From a virus, in the IMG/VR virus record IMGVR_UViG_3300025137_000079, positions 1 to 42,074 of that record: a stretch of 42,074 nt of DNA. One strand, 5' to 3'. Shown here piece by piece: positions 2,166 through 38,865 of this stretch. A program made the position numbers and the translations under genes. Positions within the stretch are counted from its first letter, which is position 1; every line of letters begins with the position of its first letter. The notes below the pieces were generated by a model, which saw only the letters and a list, made by a program, of their open reading frames with translations, did no database searches and had not been told where the DNA came from.

Positions 2166-5100
2166 ATGCCAACAGCGGTATACCCCGGCTCTCCAGCGTA
2201 CTTTTCGGAACAGTACCCGGCAAAAGAAGTTGCCGAAACTACTGTTCCGCCTCAAAAATTAATTGATTTTGAAGCTGATTTTGCGCCTTTAATTCGCCAA
2301 TACGGTTTGTCTAACAGCGTAAAAGCGGTGGTGGATTTAGAAGAGGGTCCTGGGGTTTATGAAGATTTAAGAAATTCAGCAAAGCTTAACGACTTAGAGA
2401 TTATGCAAAGACATTTGCAGATAGAAAAGTCAGACATCCCTATTGCTTCTATGCGTAACGAGGGTCTTGGCCGAGATGAAATTACTAAAGTTTTTCTTCA
2501 AAACTTGGGTTTAACCGAAATAGAACTGGCTAAAACCGGGATTGATTCGCAAGAATTTTTAAATACCTTCGCTAAAGGCCGTGATTTAGCAATGACCGAA
2601 GGAGTTTCAGAAGGCGGGGCTCGTAGTGTTGTAGCAGGTGCTCCTGCTGTTGCGGGCATGATAGCCGGTGCAGCAGCCGGTGCTCCGTTTTTTCCCCCTT
2701 ATGGGGCAATAATTGGAGGAGGAGCCGGTTTAATTCTTGGCGCTGTTGGAGGATCGTTTGCGGAACAAGCTGTGTTTGATGACTCCCCTATTTTAGACGA
2801 AGGCGTCAATGCTGCGATGGAATCAACGAAGGTTTTTGGCGAAGCAATTATTGGTTTATCCGCCCCCTACGCTTTTAAAAAAATCGGCAACTATGCGTTG
2901 ACGAAACAAGCGGGTTTCTTCAAAACAATGGCGGATTCTATTCGGCTTCGTTCCTTCAACAACACGGTAAACCCGGTGTTTCAAGCAGGAGTTACTCCTC
3001 GACATTTAGAGTATTTTGAAAAAACAGACCCGGTGATGTTTAGGTATTTGCAAGACTACATAGGTAGGAAACGCGCTGCCGCGTCCTACGCTACTGAGGC
3101 TACCAGCGCCACAGGATCGGCCGCCGCAGTTGCTGCTGCAGAAATCGGCGACCCCGGTTCCGCTATTACGCGAACAGCTGCGGAAATAGGTGGCGCTGTT
3201 GTTATTTCTCCTTTTAATGTCCTGGGTTGGGTTCCTTACTTTGTAGCCGCAAAAGACGGTTTGGAAGCAGATGCGGCGGCGTTAGCTTCCGGGCTTACGG
3301 ATCAATCCACAAAAGAATTGCGAGTTGGTACTGCTTTACGGGAATATTTACTTTCTCGGGGGGAAGACCCCGACGATATGGTAGAACAACTTCGAAATCC
3401 CACGTTTACGAAACTAATAGACGAAGCCGCTCTTGCACAAAGTCAAGGATCAGTAACAACGTTTCCCGAAAACCGCCGGTTTGATTTGACTGATAGGGTT
3501 TTGCCGGATGAAAAAGGAAACGTTGAGGGTTTTGATCGTCCTTTGGCTCGTTCCGAAAGTGAAATACAAGCTCCTAATTCCAGGGCGCTTACAAACAGCG
3601 CAACGTTAGAGTTAATCGAAGGACAATTAAGAGCTTTAAACGGTCGTTTTGGCGCGGATATTCAAACCGCAATTGACAAGCAAGCACAAGACATAAACAG
3701 CGTGATTAGCGCGTTAAGAATAACGGGCGGCAAAAATGCTTTACACACCGCCGCAGTGTTGCGGGAAAGACGGTTTGAAGAGCTAGTAACGCAACGTTTT
3801 GAGCACGCCATGAACCAAGCGAGTTTAGCGACAAAAAACCTACAACTCGACGACCCCGAAGCAGTTAACGAAGCTAGTAAAAAAATTGACGCGATTATTA
3901 ATAACATGTTTATAGCGGTAAAAGCCCAAGAAAAAAAGCTATACGATCTTGTGCCAAAAAACATAAAAGTTCCTCAAACCGCTTTAGTTGCAGAAATTCA
4001 AGAGCAAATGAAAACTAACGTGCCGGAAGTGGTAAACGAATTGTTTCCTAAAGTAGCAAGAGCTACCGAGGCTAAGTTTTCAGAAGCAACCAAAGTGGCT
4101 GCTTTAGACTCTCGAATTAATTTCTTACAAGAATTTAATAACGCCATAAAACCGGATTACACAAAATCTATTGGTGAAGGTCCTAAGTGGACTGAAGAAA
4201 TGAAAACGGCAACCGGTTTAGAAAAATACCAATTAGAGCCTGAGTTAAGAAGGTTAAAAGAAGAACGGGCCGAGTTGGGAGAAGTAGAGGAACTTGTTCC
4301 CCCGACTATGGAACAAATGAAAAACTACCGTACTTTTTTACTAGGACAGGCACAAGTTTCAAAAGCTGGTAAGACCCCGGATTTGATAGATCATCGGGTT
4401 TATTCTTCTTTGGCGGAAGCCATCCGCGTAGACATGAACAACATAGAAGAAATTCAAGCGTTAAACTCGGACGTTATTTCGGGTAATGACTTAGAGGCTT
4501 TAGACAAAGCGCGAGCATACGGAAAGGCGATGCGTGACGTATTTCGTCGTGCTTTCCCAAACGACTTGATTGTACAAAAATCTAGTGGCGAAAAGTTTGT
4601 TGATCCGGAATTAGTGTTTAAACAAGTAATTAAAGGAACAGACTCCGAAACTAAAATAAAACTTAAACAACTTAACGATGCAGTTAGCTTTTTGACAGAC
4701 CCCAACACTCCTGGGGGGTTATCCGGAGATCCTTTAACAAGCGCAGTTGTTGAGGGTGGTTTAGACGATTTAAACACCGCTTACGATTTGATTTTTCGTA
4801 ATATGGTGGATAACCCTACATACATCGATGAATCAGGAAACCTTAAAGACGTTGCAGTAGACCGGTTTTTACGAACAAACGAACAATCTTTGAATTTAAT
4901 TCCCGGTTTAAAAGACGATTTATTAAACGCTAAAAAACGACGAACTTTGTTTCTTCAAGCGCAAGAAAGAACAAAAAACAATACTCTTGCGAAGAAGTTT
5001 TTTGCTTCTAACTTTTTCCAAAATGTACTTGGTGAAAAACCTTTTGCCGCTATAGACACCATTGTAAAAGGAAGAAACACTCACCGGGATTTCCGGGAGT

Positions 5101-6134
5101 TTGTAAAAAAAATGCGGGTAGCAGCTACTCGCTCTGAAACTAGTGGGGTCACCGAGCAAGAATATAAACGCGGTTTGCGGCCCGTTACCGTAAATCAAGT
5201 GGATACAGAAATACGAGACGCTGTTTTTGAGTCTGCGGTGAACTACGCAAGCGCCACGGGTGACGCTATCAGTGACATGCCGAACTTTAAAAAAATGCAT
5301 TCGTACTTTTTTGAGGCGGGCGGTAAAAACCCTCCGTTTGTTGATGTTTTAGTAAAAACAGAAATAATGACTGTTGCAGAAAGACTTCGGTTAGAAAAAC
5401 TTTTACTAGCCGGGGAAGGTGCCCAAAAAAGAATAACTGCCCCCGGTTTTAACGCGGTAGAAGAAGTAGAGACAGGAACGGATATCTTAACGAACCTTTT
5501 AGTACGGGCAGGAGGAGCGGGAGTCGGCGGTAAAATAGGTAAAGCTTTACCGGGTGATTCTACTTTGATTGCCAATAGTGCGGGCGCACAAGCCGCGTTA
5601 AGGTTACTAGACGCAATCCCTGTCAAAGACACCAATAAGATTTTGCAGGAAGCCATTAAAGACCCGGATTACTTAGCTTTGTTGCTAGATCGCACTATTG
5701 TTGCGGGTGAACCGAAAACAAAACTGGGCAGACTTTTACAGATATTTAAAGTTAAAAAGTTAAACGCTTACTTTAAAAACGCGTTAGGAATACCGGCAGG
5801 TCAGGCTTTAACTCAAGATGATTTTTCCGAAGAAGACGAGCAACAATTCCGAGCAAATCCTTTTTCAGGAGGACGTTCTTTAGGCGACGACCCGTCTTTC
5901 GATGCTATAAAACAAAGTAATTACCCCGGTTTTGGTTTTGAAAGAAAAAACCAAAGCAACAGCGCACCTATTGATCCGCCTCAACCGGCCGCCGCTCCAC
6001 CGCCGCAAGCGCAAGCTGCTCCACCAAACCCGCAGCTTAGACAACGCTACGCGGCTATGTACCCTAACGACCCTATTTCAGGGCTCATTGAGCAACAGGC
6101 TATGCAGACGGGTATCGGGACCCTTCCGACTTAG
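2166..6134 (+). CDS. Large putative internal virion or DNA-ejection protein
   Basis: 1322 residues. Residues about 150-205 form a Gly/Ala-rich hydrophobic stretch with glycine-zipper spacing (AGMIAGAAAGAPFFPPYGA, then GGGAGLILGAVGGS). A second Ala-rich, partly hydrophobic region lies near residues 305-360. Most of the rest is charged and helix-like, and the last 35 residues are rich in Pro, Ala and Gln. No catalytic motif was found. Size, a membrane-active-looking segment and position next to another large virion-type gene fit internal core or ejection proteins of short-tailed phages; that role is inference. It starts one base after the preceding stop. Its stop overlaps by four bases the stop of the convergent helicase gene. 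Confidence 0.8.
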   Translation: MPTAVYPGSPAYFSEQYPAKEVAETTVPPQKLIDFEADFAPLIRQYGLSNSVKAVVDLEEGPGVYEDLRNSAKLNDLEIMQRHLQIEKSDIPIASMRNEGLGRDEITKVFLQNLGLTEIELAKTGIDSQEFLNTFAKGRDLAMTEGVSEGGARSVVAGAPAVAGMIAGAAAGAPFFPPYGAIIGGGAGLILGAVGGSFAEQAVFDDSPILDEGVNAAMESTKVFGEAIIGLSAPYAFKKIGNYALTKQAGFFKTMADSIRLRSFNNTVNPVFQAGVTPRHLEYFEKTDPVMFRYLQDYIGRKRAAASYATEATSATGSAAAVAAAEIGDPGSAITRTAAEIGGAVVISPFNVLGWVPYFVAAKDGLEADAAALASGLTDQSTKELRVGTALREYLLSRGEDPDDMVEQLRNPTFTKLIDEAALAQSQGSVTTFPENRRFDLTDRVLPDEKGNVEGFDRPLARSESEIQAPNSRALTNSATLELIEGQLRALNGRFGADIQTAIDKQAQDINSVISALRITGGKNALHTAAVLRERRFEELVTQRFEHAMNQASLATKNLQLDDPEAVNEASKKIDAIINNMFIAVKAQEKKLYDLVPKNIKVPQTALVAEIQEQMKTNVPEVVNELFPKVARATEAKFSEATKVAALDSRINFLQEFNNAIKPDYTKSIGEGPKWTEEMKTATGLEKYQLEPELRRLKEERAELGEVEELVPPTMEQMKNYRTFLLGQAQVSKAGKTPDLIDHRVYSSLAEAIRVDMNNIEEIQALNSDVISGNDLEALDKARAYGKAMRDVFRRAFPNDLIVQKSSGEKFVDPELVFKQVIKGTDSETKIKLKQLNDAVSFLTDPNTPGGLSGDPLTSAVVEGGLDDLNTAYDLIFRNMVDNPTYIDESGNLKDVAVDRFLRTNEQSLNLIPGLKDDLLNAKKRRTLFLQAQERTKNNTLAKKFFASNFFQNVLGEKPFAAIDTIVKGRNTHRDFREFVKKMRVAATRSETSGVTEQEYKRGLRPVTVNQVDTEIRDAVFESAVNYASATGDAISDMPNFKKMHSYFFEAGGKNPPFVDVLVKTEIMTVAERLRLEKLLLAGEGAQKRITAPGFNAVEEVETGTDILTNLLVRAGGAGVGGKIGKALPGDSTLIANSAGAQAALRLLDAIPVKDTNKILQEAIKDPDYLALLLDRTIVAGEPKTKLGRLLQIFKVKKLNAYFKNALGIPAGQALTQDDFSEEDEQQFRANPFSGGRSLGDDPSFDAIKQSNYPGFGFERKNQSNSAPIDPPQPAAAPPPQAQAAPPNPQLRQRYAAMYPNDPISGLIEQQAMQTGIGTLPT

Positions 6135-14489: not shown

Positions 14490-14518
14490 TTGCGATAATT
14501 CGCATAGGGTCCTATACT
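14490..14518 (+). promoter_or_regulatory. Sigma70-type promoter upstream of RHH-like gene and hairpin region
   Basis: TTGCGA (14490-14495), 17-base spacer, TATACT (14513-14518). A palindrome TGCGA-TAAT-TCGCA (14491-14504) covers the -35, and ATAGG-GT-CCTAT (14504-14515) runs into the -10, so operator control is likely. The expected start falls at or next to the A of ATG 14526. Confidence 0.75.
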
Positions 14519-14525
14519 GCACGTC

Positions 14526-14693
14526 ATGGATACAGAAAAATGGAAATCAGTCCTTGTGCCAGTCCCGGTTTACCGGGAAATTAAGGCAATTGCAAGCATG
14601 GAAGAACGAAGTATCTCTGGACAATTGCGTAAAATTTTTAAAGAATGGCAAGAAGATCGCGTTGCCGAAGCACGGCAATTGGATCAACACTAG
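14526..14693 (+). CDS. Small ribbon-helix-helix-like protein, possible repressor
   Basis: 55 residues. A short strand-like segment (WKSVLVPVPVYREIKAIA) is followed by ERSISGQLRKIFKEWQED. This beta then helix-helix arrangement, with a Ser-Gly turn before the second helix, resembles the Arc/MetJ ribbon-helix-helix fold. RHH proteins dimerise and bind operators; the palindromes over its own promoter would suit autoregulation, which is inference. No Shine-Dalgarno is visible, because the ATG is 7 bases after the -10 box, suggesting a leaderless message. The ORF is too short to stand on length alone; support comes from promoter, fold pattern and intergenic position. Confidence 0.6.
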   Translation: MDTEKWKSVLVPVPVYREIKAIASMEERSISGQLRKIFKEWQEDRVAEARQLDQH

Positions 14694-15135
14694 GTTCATT
14701 ACTGGTGGCGCTGTTAGAACGATCCTCCAACAGCGCCGCTATTACGGGGGGCCTGTTAGCCCAGGTTACCCCCGACTTTTAAATCCAAGACGTAACAGGT
14801 CGGTATCCGGTTACGTTTTGTAGGTCAAGGCAACAAAACAAAGTCATTTTTGTTTCCGAGCCTTGTTGGCTCGTTCCCGTCCGAGTGGCCGAAAAGGCGG
14901 GTAACTTTATTTAGTTGCACACTTCTTTTTCTTTTGCTACGGTTCTTATCGAACCAACCCCTAGCTGGTTCACCTCAAACCAACCCACATTCCCCGTGGG
15001 TCCCCTTTACTGCGCCTTCGGGCGCAGTATCTTTTATGCAGTAAATTTTTTACACTAAAAGAGACTAAGGATATTTAAGACTGTCCTTTCGGACTCGCTT
15101 GGCCCACGAGTAGTCAAAACGGGCTTTACTTTTTT
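14694..15135 (+). other. Non-coding, hairpin-rich region; candidate structured RNA
   Basis: No convincing gene. It holds a run of perfect inverted repeats: 14707-14737 (9-bp stem), 14745-14774 (6 bp plus inner 4 bp), 14790-14816 (7 bp plus inner 3 bp), 14826-14865 (6 bp plus inner 7 bp), 14857-14873 (6 bp, competing with the previous one), 14941-14955, 14966-14982, 14983-15001 (6 bp), 15008-15029 (9 bp, TTCG loop), then 15083-15094 and 15093-15111. It lies downstream of the 14490 promoter and could be transcribed rightward. Chance would give the 5-bp stems but hardly this series of long and nested ones. Confidence 0.6.
15008..15035 (+). terminator. Probable rightward intrinsic terminator with TTCG loop
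   Basis: TACTGCGCC, TTCG, GGCGCAGTA form a perfect 9-bp stem with a C(UUCG)G loop, followed by TCTTTTA. The T-run is short and interrupted, so termination may be partial. It would end transcripts from the 14490 promoter. Confidence 0.6.
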
Positions 15136-17446: not shown

Positions 17447-17856
17447 TACACAGCCTCCTGTAACGCAGTGACGTTGATCTCGTCAGTGGTTAGATGAGAG
17501 TACTCGGGGTTGCGGGTCACATTGGCACACAACATGACATTCCCCGACGCATCGCGCTTAAAGGTGAACGCGACGGTGTCACCCTCGGCAGCTTGCTCAC
17601 GTAGGACAGGAGCGGGGATGTTGTACCGCTTGTCCTTGCGTCCGTTCTTGCCTGTCACGACATAGAACTTGATTGTCGTTTCGGTGCCGTCCGGAAAATG
17701 CAAAGGCAGTTCTTTCTTGTTGCCATTCGTCATGGCGTCAAAATCAACGCCGAGCAACCGCGCCAAGCGGACCAGCTCTTTAAAGCAGTCCGGGTTTCCT
17801 TTGTCGATCATAGTCTTGGTCAGCGTCTTGCTGACCGGTGGTATCAATAGATCCAT
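17446..17856 (-). CDS. Unknown phage protein
   Basis: 136 residues, AAGGAAGAC about 5 bases before the ATG. N-terminal helix region (SKTLTKTMIDKGNPDCFKEL, then VRLARLLGVDFD), then a beta-rich part (TETTIKFYVVTGKNGRKDKR, VAFTFKRDASGNVMLCANV). I recognise no domain. It is the largest product in the first half of the leftward operon, and tight coupling to the 17153 gene (TAATG) suggests they work together or need matched amounts. Confidence 0.65.
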   Translation of the reverse strand: MDLLIPPVSKTLTKTMIDKGNPDCFKELVRLARLLGVDFDAMTNGNKKELPLHFPDGTETTIKFYVVTGKNGRKDKRYNIPAPVLREQAAEGDTVAFTFKRDASGNVMLCANVTRNPEYSHLTTDEINVTALQEAV

Positions 17857-17877
17857 TTCAGTCTTCCTTTTGTTGAT

Positions 17878-18099
17878 TTAGCAAACCTGCATTTCTACCA
17901 GTTTGCATTCGTTATCTTTCGCCCAGTTCGATACCTTCTTCACGGCATCGGTCCAATTGACCGCGCCATCCGCGAAGATTTCATCAAAACTGTAGCCGTC
18001 CTTGTCCTCAAAAATACATACCGCGTTTGAGTCTTCTTCCCACTTGCCAAAACACGAGATCTCCTGACCGTCGTGCTTGATTTCAGTTCTTTTCATCAT
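17878..18099 (-). CDS. Small protein, unknown function
   Basis: 73 residues, ATG at 18099 (a second ATG follows directly), AAGGAC upstream. Acidic and aromatic (EISCFGKWEEDSNAVCIFED, then YSFDEIFADGAVNWTDAVKK). Its start overlaps the stop of the 44-codon gene before it (ATGA), so translation is coupled. No family recognised. Confidence 0.65.
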   Translation of the reverse strand: MMKRTEIKHDGQEISCFGKWEEDSNAVCIFEDKDGYSFDEIFADGAVNWTDAVKKVSNWAKDNECKLVEMQVC

Positions 18100-37268: not shown

Positions 37269-37345
37269 GCCTGTTAAATAGGTATTCTTCATTGATCCTG
37301 ACAGGGGCATACCGCGCCTGACACTAGCCACGACAGGAGATAATC

Positions 37346-38251
37346 ATGGCGAACACAACCTTTAACGGCGCAGTCCGTTCAGAAAATGGTTTTAAGACCA
37401 TTGATAAAAATTCAACAACAGGTGCCGTTACAGACGGTCTGGTAATCAACGCAGATGGTAATATCTATACTGATGATGGTGGGCATATTCAATATGCAGC
37501 AGCAACAGGGTATGGACCAGCTGATTCTATCGTAGGTAAAGGCGGGAGCCAATACGGCACAGTAGACCCATTTACTTCGGGGCTTACTCAATTATTTCCA
37601 TTAGGCAGTAGATTGCTTTACGGTAATACTGTTTATGCTTATGGTAGACTAGCCGCAGTCGCTGTAACAGCGGGTAAATGTGTAACTCACGCTGCATCAA
37701 TCGCACATCACTTCGACTTGACACCTACGGCTGGTGTAGCTGCTGGTGAAACTGCAATATCGGTTGAAACCGCTGGTACTGACATAACGCTTAATCAATA
37801 CGCGGGTGGGTACCTGTATGTAAACGACGCTGCTGGCGAAGGCCAAATGCTTCGGATAGAGTCTAACCCAGCACACGATCACTCAGCAGACCCTTCAATC
37901 GTGATTACTTGTTACGATGATTTGGCAACAGCAATAACTACAAGCTCAAGAATAACTTTAATTCCTGATCCTCGCAGTGCTCAAATTGTTCAAGCCGCGA
38001 CAACTACAGGTGCTACACTAGGTGTAACAGTTGTTGATATGGCAGCTAGTGCTTACGGTTGGTTTTCTGTTTCAGGCCCAGCTACAATATTAACTTCAGG
38101 AACTCTGGTTGTAGGTAACCACGCAGTACCACTAGGTGCTGCAGGTGCTGTTGGCCCAGCCGCAGGAGATGTTATACAAGTCATTGGTACGGTAATGATT
38201 GTAAACGTAACTACTGATTATTCGTTAATCAACCTTACGGGTATTATCTAA
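37346..38251 (+). CDS. Putative virion protein
   Basis: 301 residues, AGGAG 8 bases upstream. Beta-rich, Ala/Thr/Gly-rich: MANTTFNGAVRSENGFKTID, NADGNIYTDDGGHIQYAAAT and VIQVIGTVMIVNVTTDYSLI. The N-terminal T-F-N-G-x-V-R-S-E-N-G-F pattern is one I associate with marine phage structural proteins. Its stop overlaps the next ATG (TAATG). Decoration, fibre or adaptor roles cannot be separated by eye. Confidence 0.65.
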   Translation: MANTTFNGAVRSENGFKTIDKNSTTGAVTDGLVINADGNIYTDDGGHIQYAAATGYGPADSIVGKGGSQYGTVDPFTSGLTQLFPLGSRLLYGNTVYAYGRLAAVAVTAGKCVTHAASIAHHFDLTPTAGVAAGETAISVETAGTDITLNQYAGGYLYVNDAAGEGQMLRIESNPAHDHSADPSIVITCYDDLATAITTSSRITLIPDPRSAQIVQAATTTGATLGVTVVDMAASAYGWFSVSGPATILTSGTLVVGNHAVPLGAAGAVGPAAGDVIQVIGTVMIVNVTTDYSLINLTGII

Positions 38252-38865
38252 TGTCTGGGTCTGACGTAAAACCGGTTACTATTACTGCAGACACAGTAGC
38301 CTTGGATGCCGATGGAATATCCGTAGCAGCGTCAGTTGGTAATAACGCAGCACTTACAATAGGTGGTGCGTTAGCTTCTGGCGGTTCTGTCACACTTAGT
38401 CACGGGAGGATAGTAACTATCCTCTCTGCTGGGGATGATTCTGCTAAATCTTTTACCGTCACAGGTACTGATGTTAATGGTGATTCTCAAACTGAATCAA
38501 TCACAGGGGCTAATGCTGGCACAGCTACTGGGTCCAAATATTTTCTAACAATATCTGGTATTTCAGCAGTAGGTAATCCTGCGGGTAATGTCTCCGCGGG
38601 GGTTAACGCTTCTGCTGCGGATGTCATTTTTGCGGGTAGGGCTAGGTTAAAAGGATCTTTCTTAACGAGTACGGCAACTGCTGGAAATGTAGATTTTTTG
38701 ACTACGTCCCCTAGCGGAACTAGTTTAATGAAGATTAGTTCGGTTAGTGATGCCGATGCGACAAGGGATGTAGTTATTCCAGAAGATGGGGTGTTGTTTA
38801 CAGCGGGTATTTACATTGAATACACCGTGTCCACTTTTCTGACGATGACAGCGTTCCACGCGTAA
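38251..38865 (+). CDS. Putative virion protein, beta-sandwich-like
   Basis: 204 residues. KPVTITADTVALDADGISVA, then GRIVTILSAGDDSAKSFTVT, TDVNGDSQTESITGANAG and DGVLFTAGIYIEYTVSTFLT alternate strands and turns as in Ig-like phage surface domains. Translationally coupled to the previous gene. A head-surface or tail role is inferred. Confidence 0.65.
   Translation: MSGSDVKPVTITADTVALDADGISVAASVGNNAALTIGGALASGGSVTLSHGRIVTILSAGDDSAKSFTVTGTDVNGDSQTESITGANAGTATGSKYFLTISGISAVGNPAGNVSAGVNASAADVIFAGRARLKGSFLTSTATAGNVDFLTTSPSGTSLMKISSVSDADATRDVVIPEDGVLFTAGIYIEYTVSTFLTMTAFHA

Follow-up and report, generated by a model that had tools for sequence, protein, structure and literature searches.

Aquatic phage genomes are known to carry structured RNAs such as GOLLD. 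STAXI (RF01728) is a tandem pseudoknot, usually present in 2 to 3 copies near DNA-handling genes, and the glnA and Downstream-peptide riboswitches, structured RNAs of small size, occur in marine microbes, at times in tandem upstream of genes (PMC2864571). The HK022 putRNA, a phage RNA of about 70 nt from early operons, consists of two stem-loops near promoters (PMC9378689), and class 1 flaviviral exoribonuclease-resistant RNAs (xrRNAs) combine a P1/P2/P3 junction with a long-range pseudoknot and occur in tandem (PMC8571300). Here, we describe a pseudoknotted RNA family of many marine phages, new to Rfam 15 and almost certainly real, which is compared with these systems below.

The window analyzed is a stretch of 42,074 nucleotides covering positions 1 to 42,074 of the IMG/VR virus record IMGVR_UViG_3300025137_000079, and the original prediction was that positions 14694 to 15113 contain a candidate structured phage RNA. 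These positions form the noncoding tail 3' of a 55-aa open reading frame (ORF) that comes after the DNA polymerase A gene, with convergent genes beyond. No conserved protein is encoded across them, and none of the Rfam 15 families matches them. Two other contigs (L425 and L426) are near-identical to the window here, almost letter for letter, so an assembly error is unlikely. The plus strand folds at -156 kcal/mol, compared with -113 ± 6 kcal/mol for dinucleotide-shuffled controls (z -7.2; 0 of 100 shuffles), which places the hairpins far beyond chance, and the minus strand also folds better than its shuffles (z -5.9). The individual stems were located as predicted at 14707-14737, 14745-14774, 14826-14865, and 15008-15029, while the one proposed at 14790-14816 was found as 14786-14820. 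When the entire window was scanned coarsely in 200-nt tiles, those of 14694-15113 ranked with the greatest outliers on both strands, and the positive control, a tile with an Rfam-matched Mu-gpT-DE RNA, was an outlier as well. The Mu-gpT-DE RNA lies at 37296-37348 on the plus strand (65.8 bits), and further fold-energy outliers on the minus strand, each judged against 12 shuffles, were 17801-18000 (z -6.7) and 38401-38600 (z -5.4).

Features of the window in and around positions 14694 to 15113
Feature	Positions	Strand	Basis and remarks
Promoter-like TTGCGA-N17-TATACT	14490-14518	+	Consensus match only; upstream of small ORF; relatives have similar sites
55-aa ORF, weakly Arc/ribbon-helix-helix repressor-like	14526-14693	+	Conserved in the 80 viral loci retained
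Hairpin, 13 bp, lineage specific	14703-14741	+	Extends the 9-bp stem 14707-14737 by folding; 14697-14782 z -5.0
Two-part hairpin, lineage specific	14745-14774	+	Folding; relatives compared
Two-part hairpin, 11 bp plus 2 bp, lineage specific	14786-14820	+	z -4.3
Type A element (copy A)	14820-14905	+	Model R1, 47.1 bits, E 1e-9; in seed
Copy A, P1	14823-14826/14887-14890	+	
Copy A, P2	14827-14831/14860-14864	+	
Copy A, P3	14869-14873/14882-14886	+	
Copy A, P4	14876-14881/14896-14901	+	
Hairpin, CCCCUAG loop	14951-14971	+	Loop sequence common to close relatives
UUCG hairpin, 9 bp, terminator-like, weak tail	15008-15029	+	Relatives have stronger terminators here
Type B element (copy B), divergent	15079-15124	+	Found by eye; fewer sequences than copy A
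Copy B, P1	15079-15082/15112-15115	+	
Copy B, P2	15083-15086/15091-15094	+	
Copy B, P3	15095-15097/15107-15109	+	
Copy B, P4	15102-15105/15121-15124	+	

Most of the striking perfect hairpins do not belong to the conserved part. The three at 14703-14820 are confined to near-identical contigs: the first was not found in L003, L004, or L433, the two-part hairpins were not found in the closest nonidentical relatives, and the middle hairpins of the window are shared with relatives only partly. Since the relatives have only modules in common, a single large GOLLD-like RNA is ruled out. Of the predicted structured RNA, its presence and covariation stand, but it is composed of at least two copies of a recurrent module plus lineage-specific hairpins rather than being one RNA of 420 nt, and the conserved unit is a pseudoknotted element of about 65 to 85 nt. 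The UUCG hairpin, put forward as a terminator, does score as terminator-like, but its tail is weak. In close relatives (L003 at 5320-5500, L004, L433, L428, and L430-L432), a further multihairpin region between copies A and B contains a CCCUAG loop, a CCYGAG/CUCGGG hairpin, and a terminator, and the loop of the CCYGAG/CUCGGG hairpin may pair with an upstream GUUAG. In the window, positions 14718-14737, covering the loop plus the 3' arm of the hairpin at 14703-14741, are a perfect 20-nt reverse complement of 2739-2758, a site inside a 1,322-aa ORF (2166-6134; chance roughly 5e-5). This complementarity could reflect antisense pairing or be the relic of a template switch.

The promoter anticipated upstream of the hairpins is present as a consensus match, and the position of the ATG (14526) points to a leaderless mRNA. 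A palindrome, TGCGATAATTCGCA, at 14491-14504 overlaps the -35 hexamer of the promoter-like site and is similar in relatives; from its position, TGCGATAATTCGCA is a candidate autoregulatory operator of the small repressor-like gene. The 55-aa protein matched a PHROG Arc-like repressor with an E value of only 0.026 and had no Pfam match.

The conserved element was found by comparing relatives. A search with the polymerase yielded 80 viral contigs, and in the regions downstream of this gene, the same short motif recurred, often in tandem, on the polymerase strand in the closest relatives and on the opposite strand in others. An initial scan, which looked for two crossing helices, detected 26 copies, and many more were obtained from viral contigs with a pattern that fixed only the CCCGUC and GGCGGG strands plus a few flanking bases. 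Because this pattern does not ask for P3, the pairing of P3 is the cleanest control. Of the 111 distinct viral matches, 76 had a completely paired P3, with 14 strand combinations among them; in bacterial genomes, where the pattern matches by chance (negative control), this held for 1 match in 116. An alignment of 53 sequences (A1) was assembled, and a covariance model of P1 to P3 (R1) was built with the window's copy A in the seed; the copy in L004, outside the seed, scored 38.7 bits with R1.

The element consists of an outer helix P1, hairpins P2 and P3, and a pseudoknot, P4, formed between the P3 loop (CCCGUC) and a GGCGGG that lies 3' of P1. In A1, P1 has 4 pairs, P2 varies in length, and P3 has about 5 pairs and a loop of 8 nt; P1 is separated from the 3' strand of P4 by a short linker, frequently GAA, and there are invariant bases in the loop and linker. 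All four helices are formed in copy A of the window, with CCCGUC/GGCGGG as P4. The minimum free energy of copy A folded alone is unremarkable, since its defining helix is a pseudoknot and lies beyond the model of RNAfold. The P2 strands in A1 (columns 12-15 and 45-48) are biased beyond what pairing alone requires, the 5' strand being strongly purine (Shine-Dalgarno [SD]-like AGGG) and the 3' strand pyrimidine (anti-SD-like). Two further ideas were dropped: a pairing of the 5' flank UUAG with a 3' CUAA, because the flanks change without compensation, and stop codon readthrough, suggested by the UAG that often borders the element, because the upstream stop is found at varying distances.

Covariation among the relatives was strong. 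Every pair of P1, P2, and P3 has double-sided changes in A1, and all five summary measures exceeded those of all 500 shuffles, in an alignment biased toward P1 and P3 in that its members were picked with their pairing in mind. In two further sets fetched by a neighboring protein and not by an RNA pattern, P1-P3 covariation again exceeded all shuffles, with figures leaning toward the model since the alignments were fitted to R1. P4 could not vary in A1 because the search pattern had fixed it, but R1 retrieved copies with other P4 strands, including CCCACC/GGUGGG, CCCAGC/GCUGGG, CCCGCA/UGCGGG, CCUGUC/GGCAGG, UCCGUU/AACGGA, GCUGUC/GGCAGC, and GCCGUC/GACGGC. Read by hand, 11 of 11 P4 combinations pair fully, versus 16 of 106 swapped combinations, and P4 covaries at five of its six positions. 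Covariation was found in each of the helices P1 to P4, by shuffle statistics that ignore the relatedness of the sequences. The fifth pair of P4 is U-G in 48 of 53 sequences and otherwise U-A, the outer P3 pair is usually G-U, and one P3 pair is U-G or G-U in 39 of 53; since such pairs would be mismatches on the complementary strand, the plus strand is the RNA.

The P3 of copy B can be extended at the expense of P2. Homologues of copy B are present in L003, L004, L026-L028, L336, L388, L396, and L404, and those of L003, L004, L336, L388, L396, and L404 lie at the same place. The type B subtype was recognized in L026, where two tandem copies (P4 AGCCC/GGGCU and GGUCC/GGACC) are followed by a ribosome-binding site and an ATG.

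The element is present in many viral contigs and absent from the bacterial genomes sampled. R1 matched 48 and 103 times in two contig sets (about 150 copies), corresponding to about 90 viral arrays of 1 to 4 copies each, some on overlapping or near-duplicate contigs, with a tightest spacing of 0 to 1 nt between model ends. All copies lay at one place in 19 of the 20 matched viral records of at least 20 kb. In the clade of the window, the array was found in all 34 untruncated loci whose repressor-like protein is 77% or more identical; the 43 loci with a more distant one gave no R1 match. With stricter filters, none of 563 alpha- and gammaproteobacterial genomes had a confirmed copy, and their only two matches were in coding sequence and lacked P3 and P4. 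There was no convincing blastn match in named phage or plasmid records and no confident copy in the parts read of the polymerase relatives 023Pt_psg01, HTVC023P, and DSL-LC04. A separate recurrent motif, GAACCTTCCCGTCG..AGGCGGGCTCGGCTGCTGATT, was seen in seven contigs (L087, L091, L096, L120, L124, L155, and L157); GAACCTTCCCGTCG..AGGCGGGCTCGGCTGCTGATT looks like a simple extended hairpin in which the inner stem varies.

The element is located at cistron boundaries of early or replication operons. The upstream ORF often ends directly before the first copy (frequently within 10 nt), and in 37 of 58 detected downstream ORFs, the next start is 12 to 29 nt after the last copy. The elements adjoin more than 15 unrelated gene families, mostly early or DNA handling (DUF3310, DUF669, SNF2 helicase, ERF, and HTH-like proteins). 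Their direction is fixed relative to the flanking genes, while that relative to the polymerase varies among relatives. No same-strand gene directly follows the element in the window and its close relatives; in the latter, it is in the 3' tail before the terminator. A strong terminator separates copies A and B in relatives, and copy B lies downstream of a terminator in some.

We tentatively favor, at somewhat less than an even chance, an RNA knot acting in cis to protect or insulate the phage mRNA. P1, P2, and P3 meet in a junction, and the pairing of the P3 loop just 3' of P1 makes each copy a compact knot, which may halt exonucleases or separate neighboring cistrons on the mRNA that carries it and would thereby determine how stable the flanking message is. 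In the window, the element would cap the noncoding tail of the gene for the small repressor-like protein, immediately ahead of a terminator. We infer an action on the transcript itself from the position at cistron ends, the indifference to gene identity, the tandem use, and the knotted fold; the adjacency to stop codons, the spacing to the next start, and the unrelated neighbors suit a gene-independent role in cis. The 3'-tail position in the window's close relatives, with no same-strand gene following, and the xrRNA-like layout also count in its favor. Against it count the single array per genome, unlike a general stabilizer, the regular start codon distance, which would also fit a leader, the failure to see a second pseudoknot of xrRNA type, and the copies B found 3' of a terminator in some relatives. 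The single array and the regular start spacing keep the leader, sponge, and single-stranded DNA readings alive. A bolder extension by analogy, in which the knot of these marine double-stranded DNA phages would block a host exoribonuclease and protect early messages in tandem as an independent prokaryotic counterpart of xrRNAs, is rather improbable.

The least unlikely of the alternatives is a leader responsive to a ligand or protein (a riboswitch or translational operator), whose pseudoknot would switch access to the ribosome-binding site of the next cistron. The regular gap to the next start, the SD- and anti-SD-like P2 strands, and the tandem copies known for riboswitches such as glnA point this way, but the downstream genes are unrelated and share no pathway, and no same-strand gene follows in the window and close relatives; we consider a leader possible but unlikely. 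A trans-acting RNA or sponge, titrating a phage or host RNA-binding protein, is a quite unlikely explanation: it would accommodate the usually single array of 1 to 4 copies, the variable orientation toward the polymerase, and the invariant loop and linker bases, but the copies lie between genes of apparent operons and not in separate transcription units, and the bases of the invariant loop are taken up by P4 pairing. That the element modifies RNA polymerase during its own transcription, as an antiterminator of putRNA type, is doubtful. Its size, phage origin, and early operons recall putRNA, but putRNA has two stem-loops without such a junction or pseudoknot (PMC9378689), and the copies often lie at transcript ends or 3' of terminators, not near promoters. 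Equally doubtful is the reading, proposed for STAXI, of a DNA site that folds as a single strand when DNA is replicated, transferred, or packaged. The single locus per genome, close to DNA-handling genes and independent of which genes these are, would agree with it, but the frequent U-G pairs at fixed positions in P4 and P3 favor RNA, and the fixed direction relative to flanking genes also counts against a DNA site. Ordinary hairpins or chance, to which the z of only -1.3 for the element alone might point, is hardly credible against covariation in independent sets, the P3 control, and the bacterial genomes without the element.

If the nuclease-blocking reading is true, DNA phages would, like RNA viruses, be using knots to guard their messages; if a switch or antiterminator is, there would be a layer of phage early-gene control tied to no known protein. 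The alignment and helix coordinates permit direct tests by compensatory mutations.

The element has no match in Rfam 15, and no paper describing it was found among openly licensed papers, in which motifs shown as figures are not searchable. GOLLD is much larger, and its Rfam model, in line with the original prediction, gave no match. Nor did the glnA and Downstream-peptide models, and there are no nitrogen metabolism genes beside the element. The length and early-operon setting are like those of putRNA, but the element has a junction and a pseudoknot where putRNA has two stem-loops. At the level of secondary structure, class 1 xrRNAs are alike in the junction, the pairing of the P3 loop with the 3' side, and the tandem use. 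For the ring-forming, interwoven second pseudoknot PK1, the columns of the 5' flank were compared with those of the P2/P3 junction and none were complementary, a comparison that could miss a short or noncanonical contact, and the element differs in belonging to DNA phages and in having no Rfam match. The STAXI Rfam model gave no match at the gathering score or at E ≤ 10. STAXI is nonetheless the nearest described kind, likewise a tandem pseudoknot near DNA-handling genes, whereas here each unit is built as a junction of three helices, with the P3 loop paired to bases 3' of P1.
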